This document shows, in pieces, positions 1-10,640 of a stretch of DNA of 41,368 nucleotides. The stretch covers positions 1 through 41,368 of the forward strand of contig JAITSO010000057.1 of assembly GCA_031287735.1 (NCBI GenBank), read 5' to 3'. Position numbers and translations under genes: made by a program. The notes below the pieces were generated by a model. That model did not search any database. It saw only the letters and a list, made by a program, of their open reading frames with translations, and was not told the origin of the DNA. Origin of the DNA: Elusimicrobiota bacterium (GTDB taxonomy: Bacteria; Elusimicrobiota; Endomicrobiia; Endomicrobiales; Endomicrobiaceae). The stretch's first letter is position 1. Each line of letters begins with the position of its first letter.

Positions 1-123
1 GACAATGTGACAATGGAAATAGAATTGATAATGCCGGTAGCGATGGAAACACAGTTGAGATTTGCAATAAGAGAAGGTGGCAGAACAGTAGGCTCCGGAG
101 TTGTTACAGAAATCGTAGAATAA
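1..123 (+). CDS. tuf: Elongation factor Tu, C-terminal end (partial)
   Basis: The window opens inside a reading frame of 40 codons ending in TAA. It encodes the last part of EF-Tu domain 3, with the recognisable segments [24 protein letters not shown] and the terminal TEIVE. EF-Tu delivers aminoacyl-tRNA to the ribosome in the cytoplasm. The order tuf, rpmG, tRNA-Trp, secE, nusG is the classical bacterial arrangement and supports the call. The 5' part lies outside the window. Confidence 0.95.
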
Positions 124-169
124 GTCGCATCTATTAAACCATTAGCAACAAAATAAATTGGAGAACAGT

Positions 170-322
170 ATGTCTGAAAGAGTTATTATAACCATGGCGT
201 GCAGCATTTGCAAAAACAGAAATTACTATTTTGACAGAGGAAAAAAACAAGAAGGGAAGCTTGCTCTTAAAAAATTTTGCAAAAATTGCGGGAAACGCAC
301 AGACCACAAAGAAACGAAGTAA
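170..322 (+). CDS. rpmG: 50S ribosomal protein L33
   Basis: This 50-residue gene encodes ribosomal protein L33 of the large subunit. It starts at the ATG at 170, after a GGAG ribosome-binding site near 160. It carries two CxxC pairs (CSIC at residues 11-14, CKNC at 37-40) that form the zinc ribbon of the Cys-containing L33 type. The basic tail (KRTDHKETK) and a length of about 50 residues are typical. It lies 46 bases after tuf and 14 before the tRNA-Trp gene. Confidence 0.93.
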   Translation: MSERVIITMACSICKNRNYYFDRGKKQEGKLALKKFCKNCGKRTDHKETK

Positions 323-336
323 CTGTGCAAAATTTT

Positions 337-408
337 GGGGGCATAGGCTTAATGGTAAACTCCCGGTCTCCAAAACCGGTTTTGGAGGTTCAAATCCTTC
401 TGCCCCCG
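337..408 (+). tRNA. tRNA-Trp (anticodon CCA)
   Basis: A 72-base cloverleaf can be drawn by eye. The acceptor stem GGGGGCA (337-343) pairs with TGCCCCC (401-407), followed by discriminator G. The anticodon stem CCGGT/ACCGG encloses the loop CTCCAAA, giving anticodon CCA. The T arm contains GGTTCAAATCC. The 3' CCA end is not encoded. Its position between rpmG and secE matches the conserved bacterial order. Confidence 0.95.
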
Positions 409-493
409 TTTTCAGGAGAATAAGGAGCAGTTAGCATAAAATTGGTTTTTGGACGGTGCAAGTTTAAAAATTATAAGTTGGAGAAGGTATAAA

Positions 494-682
494 ATGAATT
501 TTTTTAGCAGTTTGGTTGTTTTTTTAAAAGGTTCCTACTATGAACTCACTAAAGTCACTTGGATAAGCAGGAAAGAAGTTGTTGGCACCACAGTTGTAGT
601 CGCTATTTTCGTAATAATTATGTCTATTTTTGTAGGTCTTGTGGATATGTTTTTAGGTACTACAGTAGGAATTATATTATAA
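494..682 (+). CDS. secE: Preprotein translocase subunit SecE
   Basis: This 62-residue single-span membrane protein is the short bacterial form of SecE, the clamp subunit of the SecYEG channel. An amphipathic N-terminal helix with the typical YYELTKVTW segment is followed by a hydrophobic helix (about residues 30-55). The frame is open further upstream, but the ATG at 494 follows a good GGAGAAGG site and gives the family's usual start. nusG begins 14 bases downstream. Confidence 0.92.
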   Translation: MNFFSSLVVFLKGSYYELTKVTWISRKEVVGTTVVVAIFVIIMSIFVGLVDMFLGTTVGIIL

Positions 683-696
683 GTTGGAGTAAAAAA

Positions 697-1236
697 ATGG
701 CTAATCAGTGGTATGTTGTTCATACTTATAGTGGGTACGAAGATAGAGTAAAAAATAGCTTGGAACAAACTCTAAGCAATCTAGACAATAAAGATAGTGT
801 AAAGATTTACAGAATTCTTGTTCCAACAGAAGATGTCGTTGATGTTCGTGGAAATAAAAAAACGATAAAAAAGAAAAAATTTTTTCCGGGATATGTTTTC
901 ATTGAAATGACACTAAATAACGATGTGTATTGGATTATCAGGAATACAGCAGGTGTTACAGGATTCCTCGGCGGCGTAAAACCTGTTCCAATAGCTCAAG
1001 AAGAAGTGAAAAATCTCCTAAATATTGTCAACAGAACCAATTCGGACGCAAAACCGAGACTTGCAATTTCGTTTGAAAAAAACGAACAGGTACGAATTAA
1101 TGAAGGACCATTTAAACATTTTGTGGGCGAAATAGCGGAAATAAACGCAAATAAAGCAAAACTTAGGGTTATGGTAAATATTTTCGGCAGAGCTGTTCCT
1201 GTAGAGTTGAATTTTTTACAAGTAGAAAAGGTGTAG
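697..1236 (+). CDS. nusG: Transcription termination/antitermination protein NusG
   Basis: This 179-residue protein is full length for NusG, which binds RNA polymerase and couples it to Rho or the ribosome. The N-terminal NGN domain begins with the classic WYVVHTYSGYE and contains FPGYVFIEM. The C-terminal KOW domain carries NEGPFKHFVGEI. The ATG at 697 follows a GGAG site. An extension of the frame upstream overlaps secE and does not resemble NusG, so it is rejected. Confidence 0.96.
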   Translation: MANQWYVVHTYSGYEDRVKNSLEQTLSNLDNKDSVKIYRILVPTEDVVDVRGNKKTIKKKKFFPGYVFIEMTLNNDVYWIIRNTAGVTGFLGGVKPVPIAQEEVKNLLNIVNRTNSDAKPRLAISFEKNEQVRINEGPFKHFVGEIAEINANKAKLRVMVNIFGRAVPVELNFLQVEKV

Positions 1237-1341
1237 ATATATATATCATTTCGAAAAATCACAGCAACAAGTTATGAATACGAATTGTCAATAAATTGAT
1301 TTTTTTGAAAATGCCTTAAAAATTAAAATAGGAGTTTAAAA

Positions 1342-1776
1342 ATGGCGCCAAAAAAGATAAAAGCTTATGTTAAACTGCAAATTCCGGCAGGTAGTGCAAA
1401 CCCTGCACCGCCAGTGGGTCCCGCACTTGGACAGCAGGGTGTAAACATTATGGATTTCTGTAAACAGTTCAATGACAAAACAAAAACTACCGAAAAAGGA
1501 ATGCTCATTCCTGTTGTAATTACAGTATACGAAGACAGATCTTTTGCTTTTATAACAAAGATGCCTCCAGTATCTTCCTTGATTAAAAAAGCTGCCGGGG
1601 TAGCTAAAGCTTCTGCTATTCCTAATAGAACAAAAGTTGGAAGAATTACTAAGATTCAGGTTGAAGAAATAGCAAAACAAAAAATGCCAGATTTAAACAC
1701 TAATGGAAACTTAGAAGCTGCAAAATTTATGGTGGAAGGAACAGCAAAAAGTATGGGAATAGACATCATAAGATAG
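1342..1776 (+). CDS. rplK: 50S ribosomal protein L11
   Basis: This 144-residue protein has the normal length of L11, which forms the GTPase-associated centre with 23S rRNA. The proline/glycine-rich N-terminal segment ([20 protein letters not shown]) and the C-terminal rRNA-binding domain with a GTAKSMGI ending are intact. The start follows an AGGAG site. It is followed after 14 bases by a tautomerase gene instead of rplA. Confidence 0.96.
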
Positions 1777-1790
1777 GAGGTTTAAAGGTT

Positions 1791-2027
1791 ATGCCGCACA
1801 TTTCATTGAAAATGCTTAATGGAAGAACTGAAGAGCAAAAAAAGAAGCTTTCAGAAGCTTTGTCGCAAGCAGTTCAAAATGTTCTAAATATAGTCGATAT
1901 GCATGTTTCTGTGACTATTGAAGATTATTCTGCAAAAGAATGGCAAGAAGTGTTTAAAGAAGAAATTACGAATAAAGAAAAGTTTTTATATAAGAAACCG
2001 GAATACGATCCAAAAAGTTTGATGTAG
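1791..2027 (+). CDS. 4-oxalocrotonate tautomerase-family protein
   Basis: This 78-residue protein begins Met-Pro-His-Ile, so removal of Met would expose the N-terminal proline that acts as catalytic base in this superfamily. The body (SEALSQAVQNVL, then VSVTIEDYSAKEWQEVF) follows the beta-alpha-beta monomer plan. It resembles the slightly longer PptA/YdcE type more than the 62-residue 4-OT type. Its substrate cannot be told. A strong AGGAGG site at 1775-1780 overlaps the rplK stop, so translation is probably coupled to L11. A tautomerase between rplK and rplA is unexpected. Confidence 0.82.
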   Translation: MPHISLKMLNGRTEEQKKKLSEALSQAVQNVLNIVDMHVSVTIEDYSAKEWQEVFKEEITNKEKFLYKKPEYDPKSLM

Positions 2028-2084
2028 ATTTTTAGTGGGAGCTTGCTAAATATGCACTAAAGCGCTAAACCACAAGGAGATAAA

Positions 2085-2762
2085 ATGACAAAAAAATCAA
2101 AGAAAGCAACAAAAACAATTGACAAAAGCAAAATTTACGCTATTGTCGACGCGGTACCATTGGTAAAGGAAAACGCTAAAGCCAAATTTGATGAAACAGT
2201 TGAAACGCACATAAGGTTGGGAATTGATCCAAAGCAAAGCGATCAAATAGTAAGAGGTACCATTTCTCTTCCCCATGGAATTGGAAAAATCAGAAAAGTC
2301 GCTGTGCTAGCAAAAGGTGAAAAGCAAAAAGAAGCTGAAAAATCTGGAGCAGACAAAATTGGAGCCGAAGATTTAATTGAAGATATCTCAAAAGGTTTTT
2401 TAGATTTTGATGTTTTAGTTGCTACTCCGGACATCATGAAGGACCTGAGTAAAGTTGCAAAAATATTGGGGCCTAAAGGTCTTATGCCTAATCCTAAATC
2501 CGGTACAGTTACTTTTGATATTGCCACTACAGTTAAGGAGTTAAAAAAAGGAAGAATAGAGTACAAAAATGATTCGTTTGGAATTGTTCATGTTCCAGTT
2601 GGAAAGGTTTCTTTTGAGAATGAAAAACTTATAGATAATATAAAAATTTTAATCGAAGCTGTTATAAAGTCTAAACCTACTTCATCAAAAGGTCAATATA
2701 TAAAATCTATTTCCATTGCATCAACTATGGGACCGGGATTATTTGTAGATCACAAAATCTAA
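2085..2762 (+). CDS. rplA: 50S ribosomal protein L1
   Basis: This 225-residue protein is of normal length for L1, the L1-stalk protein that helps release deacylated tRNA and often represses its own operon. The signature GPKGLMPNPKSGTVT is present. The C-terminal KSKPTSSKGQYIKSI and MGPG segments are typical. An AAGGAG site precedes the ATG. The gene next downstream is rimP, not rplJ, so the ribosomal protein run ends here. Confidence 0.96.
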   Translation: MTKKSKKATKTIDKSKIYAIVDAVPLVKENAKAKFDETVETHIRLGIDPKQSDQIVRGTISLPHGIGKIRKVAVLAKGEKQKEAEKSGADKIGAEDLIEDISKGFLDFDVLVATPDIMKDLSKVAKILGPKGLMPNPKSGTVTFDIATTVKELKKGRIEYKNDSFGIVHVPVGKVSFENEKLIDNIKILIEAVIKSKPTSSKGQYIKSISIASTMGPGLFVDHKI

Positions 2763-2846
2763 ACATAATATAAATAACTTATCGCAGAAATTTTACTTTA
2801 CAGAACGACTTGCGTTGAGCCGTCTCTTGTTTTTGGGAGAAGCAAC

Positions 2847-3302
2847 ATGTTCAAAGTACGAGAAATTGAAAATTTATTTTCGCCTTTTGCTGAAAAAGAA
2901 AAAGTTGAGGTGGTCGATGTTTGCTATACTAAAGAAAATGGTGATTGGATATTGAAAATTTTTATAGATAAAGAAAATGGTGTTAATATGGATGATTGCG
3001 AAAGACTCAGTAAAATTTTTAGCAAAATATTGGACGAAAATGACATTTTAGACAATTCGTATATTTTAGAGGTTTCTTCTCCGGGACTTAATAGAATCTT
3101 GAAAAAAGAAAGCCATTTTAAAAAATTTGTTAGAAGTAACGCAAGAATCCAAACCTTTAACCCAATAAACAACCAAAAAAACTTTTTAGGCGAAATCCTT
3201 GAGGTTTTAAACGGTAGCATCAAATTAAATGATGTAACGAATGGACAGGTGGAAATTCGTATCAACAACATAAAAAAAGCAAATGTAGAAGAATTGTTGT
3301 AA
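2847..3302 (+). CDS. rimP: Ribosome maturation factor RimP
   Basis: This 151-residue cytoplasmic protein matches RimP, which assists 30S subunit maturation. The N-terminal domain contains VDVCYTKENGDWILKIFID and DDCERLSKIFSKILDE. The central YILEVSSPGLNR is the most characteristic segment, followed by an SH3-like C-terminal domain. A GGGAGA site precedes the start. It heads the conserved rimP-nusA-infB cluster. Confidence 0.92.
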   Translation: MFKVREIENLFSPFAEKEKVEVVDVCYTKENGDWILKIFIDKENGVNMDDCERLSKIFSKILDENDILDNSYILEVSSPGLNRILKKESHFKKFVRSNARIQTFNPINNQKNFLGEILEVLNGSIKLNDVTNGQVEIRINNIKKANVEELL

Positions 3303-3330
3303 AAATATTTTTTGATTTAACGGAAAAGTT

Positions 3331-3362
3331 TTTGTTCTAATAAATAGTTTTGCACTCTATAA
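3331..3362 (+). promoter_or_regulatory. Possible promoter for nusA
   Basis: A perfect TATAAT lies at 3357-3362, 28 bases before the nusA start, leaving room for the AGGAGG site at about 3379-3384. Upstream, TTGTTC (3331-3336, 20-base spacer) or TTCTAA (3334-3339, 17-base spacer) are weak -35 candidates. In such AT-rich DNA a chance match is possible. Confidence 0.35.
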
Positions 3363-3390
3363 TTTACAAAAACTAACTAGGAGGATAGCG

Positions 3391-4695
3391 ATGACAGATA
3401 AGAACAAACTCTTTTCGGTTCTTGAACAGATAGAACGCGATAGAAATATAAAGAAAGAAGATATCTTTGCAGTTGTAGAAAACGCTCTTGTTGCAGCCTA
3501 CAAGAAGCAGGTAGGAAAAAATTCAAATGTTATTGCTAAAATAAATGCTGAAACAGGAGAAATGCAAACTATCGTCACAAAAACCATTGTGCAAAATGTA
3601 AAAAATCCAGTTTTAGAAATCTCTCTTTCTGAAGCAAAAAAAATCAATGCAAAATCTGAGATAGGAGCTGACATAAAAATCACTGTTGATGCACAAGAAT
3701 TTTCACGTATAGCTGCACAAACAGCAAAACAAGTTATAGTTCAAAAAGTTAGAGAATCTGAAAGAGATTTTTTATTTGCCGAAATGAGGGAAAAAATCGG
3801 GCAGCTTGTTAATGGAATAATATATCGCATAAGCAATAGGACAATAATAGTAGATTTAGGAACCACTGAAGCTATACTTCCAGCAAGCGAGCAGATACCC
3901 AAAGAAGAATTTAAAATAGGTCAAAACATAAGAGCTGTGATAACAAAAGTTGATAAAACTCAAAAAGGAATAAGTGTAGTTCTTTCCAGAGCTACAACGA
4001 GTATCGTGAAAAAGCTTTTTGAAATAGAAGTTCCGGAAATTTACGATAAAGTAGTAACAATTCTAAACGTGGTCAGAGATCCAGGTGTTAGGACAAAATT
4101 GTCGGTCACTTCTTCAAACCCAAAAGTTGATCCGGTAGGTGCTTGTGTTGGTATAAAAGGAACGAGGGTGAAACCAATTATTGACGAATTAAGAGGCGAA
4201 AGAGTAGACCTAATACCTTATAGTTTAGATCCTTTGAAATTTATTGCAAGTGCTCTTTCTCCAGCAAAATCAGTTGTTGTTAATATCGTTTCCAAAGATA
4301 GCAAAAAATCTGAAGCCATTGTTCCAGACAATATTCTGTCACTTGCTATCGGTCAAGGCGGGCACAATGTACGGCTTGCCGCAAAACTTACAGGTTGGAA
4401 TATAGACGTGAAATCTCTATCACAAAAAAATGCTGAAGCAAAATCCAAAAGTGTGAATGCTGGCAAAGAGACCATGCAAAAAAACGACAGCAAAAACAAC
4501 ATTGAAAATCAAAGTCAACCGCTTGCCATTAAAGGTATAGGACCAAAAACACTTGAAATATTGAAAACATCTGGTTATGACAGCGTAGAAAAACTTGCAA
4601 GAGCAACTTCTGAAGAATTGTCAGCTCTATCTGGAATAGGCACTAAAAGTGCAGATAAAGTAATGCTTTGCGTAAAAAAAATTCTAAACACTTAG
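3391..4695 (+). CDS. nusA: Transcription termination/antitermination protein NusA
   Basis: This 434-residue protein binds RNA polymerase and modulates pausing, termination and antitermination. The N-terminal polymerase-binding domain (residues 1-130) is followed by an S1 domain (about 134-200). Two KH domains follow, with VGACVGIKGTRVKPIIDEL and the GQGGHNVRLAAKLTGW motif. The tail (about 375-434) is a helix-hairpin-helix with IKGIGPKTLEIL and LSGIGTKSADKV, joined by a low-complexity Lys/Asn/Ser linker. It has a strong AGGAGG site. Confidence 0.95.
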   Translation: MTDKNKLFSVLEQIERDRNIKKEDIFAVVENALVAAYKKQVGKNSNVIAKINAETGEMQTIVTKTIVQNVKNPVLEISLSEAKKINAKSEIGADIKITVDAQEFSRIAAQTAKQVIVQKVRESERDFLFAEMREKIGQLVNGIIYRISNRTIIVDLGTTEAILPASEQIPKEEFKIGQNIRAVITKVDKTQKGISVVLSRATTSIVKKLFEIEVPEIYDKVVTILNVVRDPGVRTKLSVTSSNPKVDPVGACVGIKGTRVKPIIDELRGERVDLIPYSLDPLKFIASALSPAKSVVVNIVSKDSKKSEAIVPDNILSLAIGQGGHNVRLAAKLTGWNIDVKSLSQKNAEAKSKSVNAGKETMQKNDSKNNIENQSQPLAIKGIGPKTLEILKTSGYDSVEKLARATSEELSALSGIGTKSADKVMLCVKKILNT

Positions 4696-10301: not shown

Positions 10302-10640
10302 ATGGCTGAAAAAGTTCAAAAAGCAGGTGTGAAGAAAGAAAAAGGATATTTGTATTTTGTTGACGGGGACGGCGATATTTCAAGATGTCCTATGGCAAGA
10401 GGCAGAGCAACAAAAGGTGAGGAAGGCAGTAAAAAAGTTGCGAAAGTAGGTGTAGAAAAAGAAATCGGATATTTGTATTTTGTTGATAAGAATGGTGATA
10501 TTGCAAGATCTAAAATGAGCAGAGGCGGGACAAAGAAAAAGAAAACAAAAAAACTTCTGAATAAGGAAGTTGTAAAAAAAGTTGCGAAGAAAAGCGTGGC
10601 TAAAGTAGCTAAAAAAGTTGTAAAAAAGAAAAAGAAATGA
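10302..10640 (+). CDS. Two-repeat small protein with lysine-rich, histone H1-like tail
   Basis: This 112-residue protein of unknown function has a strong GGAGG site. Residues about 8-38 and 49-79 are two copies of the same unit, with consensus KxGVxKExGYLYFVDxxGDIxRxxMxRG. The DNA of the two copies is also clearly related, so an internal duplication of about 120 bases is likely. The last 30 residues (KKVAKKSVAKVAKKVVKKKKK) are almost all Lys, Ala and Val, as in bacterial histone H1-like tails, and would bind nucleic acid. No signal peptide or membrane span is seen. The GYLYFVD unit is a small domain I cannot name with certainty. Confidence 0.8.
   Translation: MAEKVQKAGVKKEKGYLYFVDGDGDISRCPMARGRATKGEEGSKKVAKVGVEKEIGYLYFVDKNGDIARSKMSRGGTKKKKTKKLLNKEVVKKVAKKSVAKVAKKVVKKKKK

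Follow-up and report, generated by a model that had tools for sequence, protein, structure and literature searches.

A YdcE/PptA-like tautomerase gene, apparently acquired horizontally, separates rplK from rplA in a member of the Endomicrobiaceae

Short 4-oxalocrotonate tautomerases (4-OT; 1bjp and YwhB 2op8) share a beta-alpha-beta fold with Pro-1 and Arg-11, and Arg-39 of the canonical enzyme binds the second carboxylate. For the related YdcE-type enzymes, we know of no established physiological substrate. The mechanism of the superfamily, from which possible substrates are deduced below, has been described (PMC5818174). Endomicrobiaceae are documented to have received genes horizontally from other gut bacteria (PMC11257099). 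Concerning the L11-L1 operon, other phyla have known L1-binding sites 5′ of rplA, which are described as irregular stem-loops with an internal bulge (PMC10931766).

The tautomerase gene and its position in the operon

In the window, which is the whole stretch of 41,368 nucleotides that was analysed, the following features were assigned:

1342..1776, + strand: rplK (ribosomal protein L11) of the host lineage; TIGR01632 with 203 bits, and relatives
1775..1780, + strand: AGGAGG Shine-Dalgarno sequence of the tautomerase gene, read from the sequence
1791..2027, + strand: YdcE/PptA-like tautomerase gene of 78 aa with N-terminal Met-Pro, horizontally acquired; PF01361, sequence and fold of 1gyj, and Clostridia homologues
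2035..2073, + strand: GTGGGAG...ACCAC hairpin, a probable L1-binding autoregulatory element; genomes of the lineage and L1-site literature
2085..2762, + strand: rplA (ribosomal protein L1) of the host lineage; TIGR01169 with 320 bits, and relatives

The initial annotation had placed a tautomerase-family gene between rplK and rplA, and this was borne out by the PF01361 match and by the TIGR01632 and TIGR01169 matches of the neighbours. The N-terminal proline was confirmed as well, as the translation of the 78-aa ORF begins with MPHISLKMLNGR. Also correct was the overlap of AGGAGG (1775-1780) with the rplK stop codon TAG (1774-1776). The distance from AGGAGG to the ATG is 10 nt. The rplK of most family members is 75–82% identical to that of the window, and AGGAGG after rplK was absent in the relatives whose gaps were read. 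Scans, which are weak evidence, found no promoter-like site on the + strand between rplK and the tautomerase gene and no terminator-like site in positions 1-3400. Lacking a recognisable promoter and a terminator, the tautomerase gene probably shares the operon mRNA with rplK, which is the simplest reading. On this mRNA, the enzyme might be made at the level of ribosomal proteins, as proposed in the initial annotation.

On its downstream side (2763-3391), rplA is followed by rimP, nusA and infB and not by rplJ-rplL-rpoB; rplJ is located on another contig (G000:C2). The order rplA-rimP-nusA is common to several relatives (e.g. L026, L028, L029, L031, L040, L042 and L045), and others differ there. 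Further away in the window (10302-10640), an ORF of 112 aa contains a 'KGYLYFVDGDGDISR'-type repeat twice and has a tail rich in lysine, with alanine and valine; it resembles a small nucleic-acid-binding protein.

The spacing of rplK and rplA was compared across relatives, as had been proposed in the initial annotation. The genes were direct neighbours in 53 of 53 relatives in which both were found, with a gap of 30–331 nt (median 75), so that a gene between them is unusual. None of the 28 relatives whose gaps were read had a tautomerase, another recognisable gene or a coding insert in this place. The wider gaps were filled by non-coding sequence, so that the segment from the rplK stop to the rplA leader evidently tolerates insertions. 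Non-coding inserts, some of them repeat-rich, were seen in L033, L038, L046, L052 and L053, with gaps of approx. 200–330 nt. Judged from such inserts in other family members, the rplK-rplA gap seems to be tolerant of insertions.

Directly 5′ of the rplA ribosome-binding site, a GTGG(G/A)AG...ACCAC element was present in all 29 genomes of the lineage that were read. The + strand of the 41-kb window has a single copy, at 2035-2073. When the outer GTGG/CCAC helix was forced, the inner part folded better than shuffled sequences in 26 of the 29 genomes (mean z -1.45) with varying sequence; the hairpin of the window reached z -0.9 under the same constraint. RNAalifold returned only the four invariant outer pairs on a MAFFT alignment, and the hairpin stretch of the window alone was not unusually stable (z -0.23). 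Thus, the structural support for the leader is moderate. Among the Rfam families, only a tRNA was detected in positions 1-3500 and none matched the rplA leader. The hairpin at 2035-2073 is a candidate and probably acts as an autoregulatory L1-binding site. It is intact, the insertion of the tautomerase gene having taken place farther upstream, between the rplK stop and the leader. If the hairpin is the L1 site, the tautomerase gene and rplK would be outside the element as both are upstream.

Origin of the gene

A homologue of the tautomerase was found in one out of 341 genomes of the phylum, namely this one (E<=1e-6). This absence from close relatives had been named in the initial annotation as one half of what would speak against its proposal. 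A PF01361 search in 77 family genomes yielded two other tautomerases, neither of them in the rplK-rplA gap and both encoded on different contigs. The enzymes of two other family members and of three members of the class differ in type or are more distantly related, and they are encoded on other contigs.

The closest homologues in the genome collection were 51–62% identical over the full length and all belonged to Clostridia/Firmicutes (Oscillospiraceae, Ruminococcus and uncultured Clostridia). In a tree with 39 rows, the window protein was located within a clade of 18 rows, the others of which are all from Clostridia/Firmicutes (support 98/94). Row L064 of this clade comes from a genome sampled from the same class as a clostridial genome; the branch of row L056, which is outside the clade holding the window gene, is not meaningful. 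Within the Clostridia clade, the tree of the 78-aa protein singles out no one donor or closest row. The class has few other tautomerases, and these formed a separate clade.

The neighbourhoods on the donor side were read by eye. The neighbours of the Clostridia homologues vary and include a DNA glycosylase, ABC transporters with an Mrp-like ATPase, a Maf-like protein, an RNA methylase near ribosomal protein genes, and RuvC. Beyond repeats within clades, no conserved Clostridia neighbourhood hinting at a function was observed. The differing neighbours across lineages fit a tautomerase gene that moves singly. In the Clostridia genome L013 (4001-6833), the homologous gene is located upstream of a methylase-like gene and S10-type ribosomal protein genes.

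The G+C content of the tautomerase gene is 0.32 compared to 0.33 for the window and 0.39–0.62 for the Clostridia homologues, and its third-position G+C of 0.28 is host-like. The transfer was therefore probably not very recent. The window protein kept 17 of the 18 columns that are invariant in the Clostridia set, including Pro-2 and Arg-12 (Met numbering), and together with the intact ORF this suggests that the gene has been maintained. In the dN/dS comparison, synonymous sites were saturated. The search for an insertion scar or flanking repeats round the gene gave only short chance repeats. An origin from a phage or mobile element was rejected with no match in phage records, viral contigs and PHROGs. 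Plasmid matches to the tautomerase were distant (40–52% identity) and mostly from Rhizobiales.

The tautomerase gene is a single horizontally acquired gene and not a conserved linkage. Of the two readings offered in the initial annotation, the simple insertion is supported by the occurrence in a single genome of the phylum, the nested position within the Clostridia clade and the unrelated contexts of the homologues. The other one, a real link between the enzyme and growth rate, would mean that the enzyme is tied to ribosome production and that its position was selected so that its dose tracks ribosomal protein synthesis. Such a link would agree with the strong ribosome-binding site of the gene at the rplK stop and with the high expression to be expected for the operon, and also with the ribosomal protein genes near the homologue of L013. 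However, the placement is unique, the homologues are found in unrelated contexts, the rplA leader that would couple to L1 is downstream of the tautomerase gene, and there is no TGGGAG in the 250 nt before rplK. Literature on a tautomerase with rplK and rplA, as far as titles and abstracts tell, contained nothing relevant. Apart from the position of the gene, nothing suggests a functional tie to the ribosome, and a growth-rate link is very improbable. The further claim that the gene was fixed here because its dose must follow ribosomal protein synthesis is even a little less probable; if true, the tautomerase would be tied to growth rate through the L11-L1 operon.

An equally poor candidate is an ancient gene of the phylum that was once widespread at the rplK-rplA site and lost everywhere else. 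It would agree with the host-like composition, which speaks against a very recent arrival, but it would need many losses to leave one genome out of 341, the gene is nested inside Clostridia, and the few tautomerases from other members of the class group elsewhere in the tree. Least credible of all is an artefact of assembly or binning that joined a foreign gene into the contig: the genome is a draft of 60 contigs and the gene is single copy, but its 237 nt with host-like third-position G+C fit exactly between the rplK stop and the rplA leader of the host on a 41-kb contig, and none of the sequences found was close enough to be the contaminant (the best protein match is 62% identical).

Family, residues and fold of the enzyme

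The protein matched PF01361 (Tautomerase) with 35.6 bits, above the curated cut-off of 22. The Pro after the initiator Met is present and was invariant in 17 aligned sequences; a loss of Pro-2, which would have spoken against the initial annotation, was not seen in the aligned homologues. Arg-11 (numbered without Met), which is conserved to >90%, was kept. Arg-39 is absent and replaced by Ser at the aligned position (HVSVTIED vs NVRVWIHD of 4faz). The description as 4-oxalocrotonate tautomerase-like holds for the fold and fails for Arg-39; lacking this residue, the enzyme is unlikely to act on the dicarboxylate 2-hydroxymuconate as canonical 4-OT does. Tautomerisation of monocarboxylate enol/keto substrates would be plausible.

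Among the NCBIfam models, TIGR00013 gave 38.5 bits, below its cut-off of 56.9. The PptA equivalog NF002324 was the best-scoring model with 52 bits, yet this is below the cut-off of 83 and the protein was not assigned as PptA. The monomer structure was predicted with a pLDDT of 91.7. The top match in the fold search was E. coli YdcE (1gyj) with 73 columns and a TM of 0.78/0.80 over the full length including the C-terminal part. By sequence as well, YdcE 1gyj ranked first in the PDB (E 1e-5; profile E 6.6e-14). The host-like composition and the kept active-site residues suggest a functional gene.

Proposed course of events and comparison with described systems

The single transfer from gut Clostridia remains, as a whole, very likely the best explanation. 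One YdcE/PptA-like gene would have passed from gut Clostridia to a gut member of the Endomicrobiaceae (Elusimicrobiota) and inserted at the tolerant site that separates the rplK stop from the probable autoregulatory rplA leader. There, it is probably transcribed on the operon mRNA. Translation would start via the AGGAGG that overlaps the stop codon of rplK and may be coupled to that of rplK. In the enzyme, Pro-1 probably serves as general base/acid on small enol/keto substrates, e.g. phenylpyruvate-type monocarboxylates.

The tautomerase gene has the appearance of an ordinary passenger that makes use of a strong operon, and it changes nothing in what is understood about tautomerases or growth control. 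It is a clean, small case of a foreign gene in a highly conserved bacterial operon in which the probable regulatory element of the gene downstream is undisturbed, and it shows where such conserved operons tolerate insertions. It also drew attention to a candidate L1-binding leader 5′ of rplA, which occurs across the lineage and is not in Rfam. With the L1 autoregulatory sites of Actinobacteria, Cyanobacteria and Firmicutes, as described in PMC10931766, this leader would share a putative stem-loop with an internal loop just 5′ of the rplA ribosome-binding site; the lineage studied here is not named in the description given there.

Compared to short 4-OT, the window protein has Ser for Arg-39 and a C-terminal extension of approx. 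15 residues. The E. coli enzyme YdcE/PptA (1gyj, 1gyx and 1gyy) also has Ser in place of Arg-39 and shares the N-terminal Pro, a conserved Trp and a C-terminal KKPxY tail; it differs in host and context, and the identity is 29%. The tautomerase genes of gut Clostridia/Oscillospiraceae (L006-L021) are not located between rplK and rplA and have various neighbours, but their products are 51–62% identical over the full length to the enzyme of the window, are of similar length and agree with it in almost all invariant residues.
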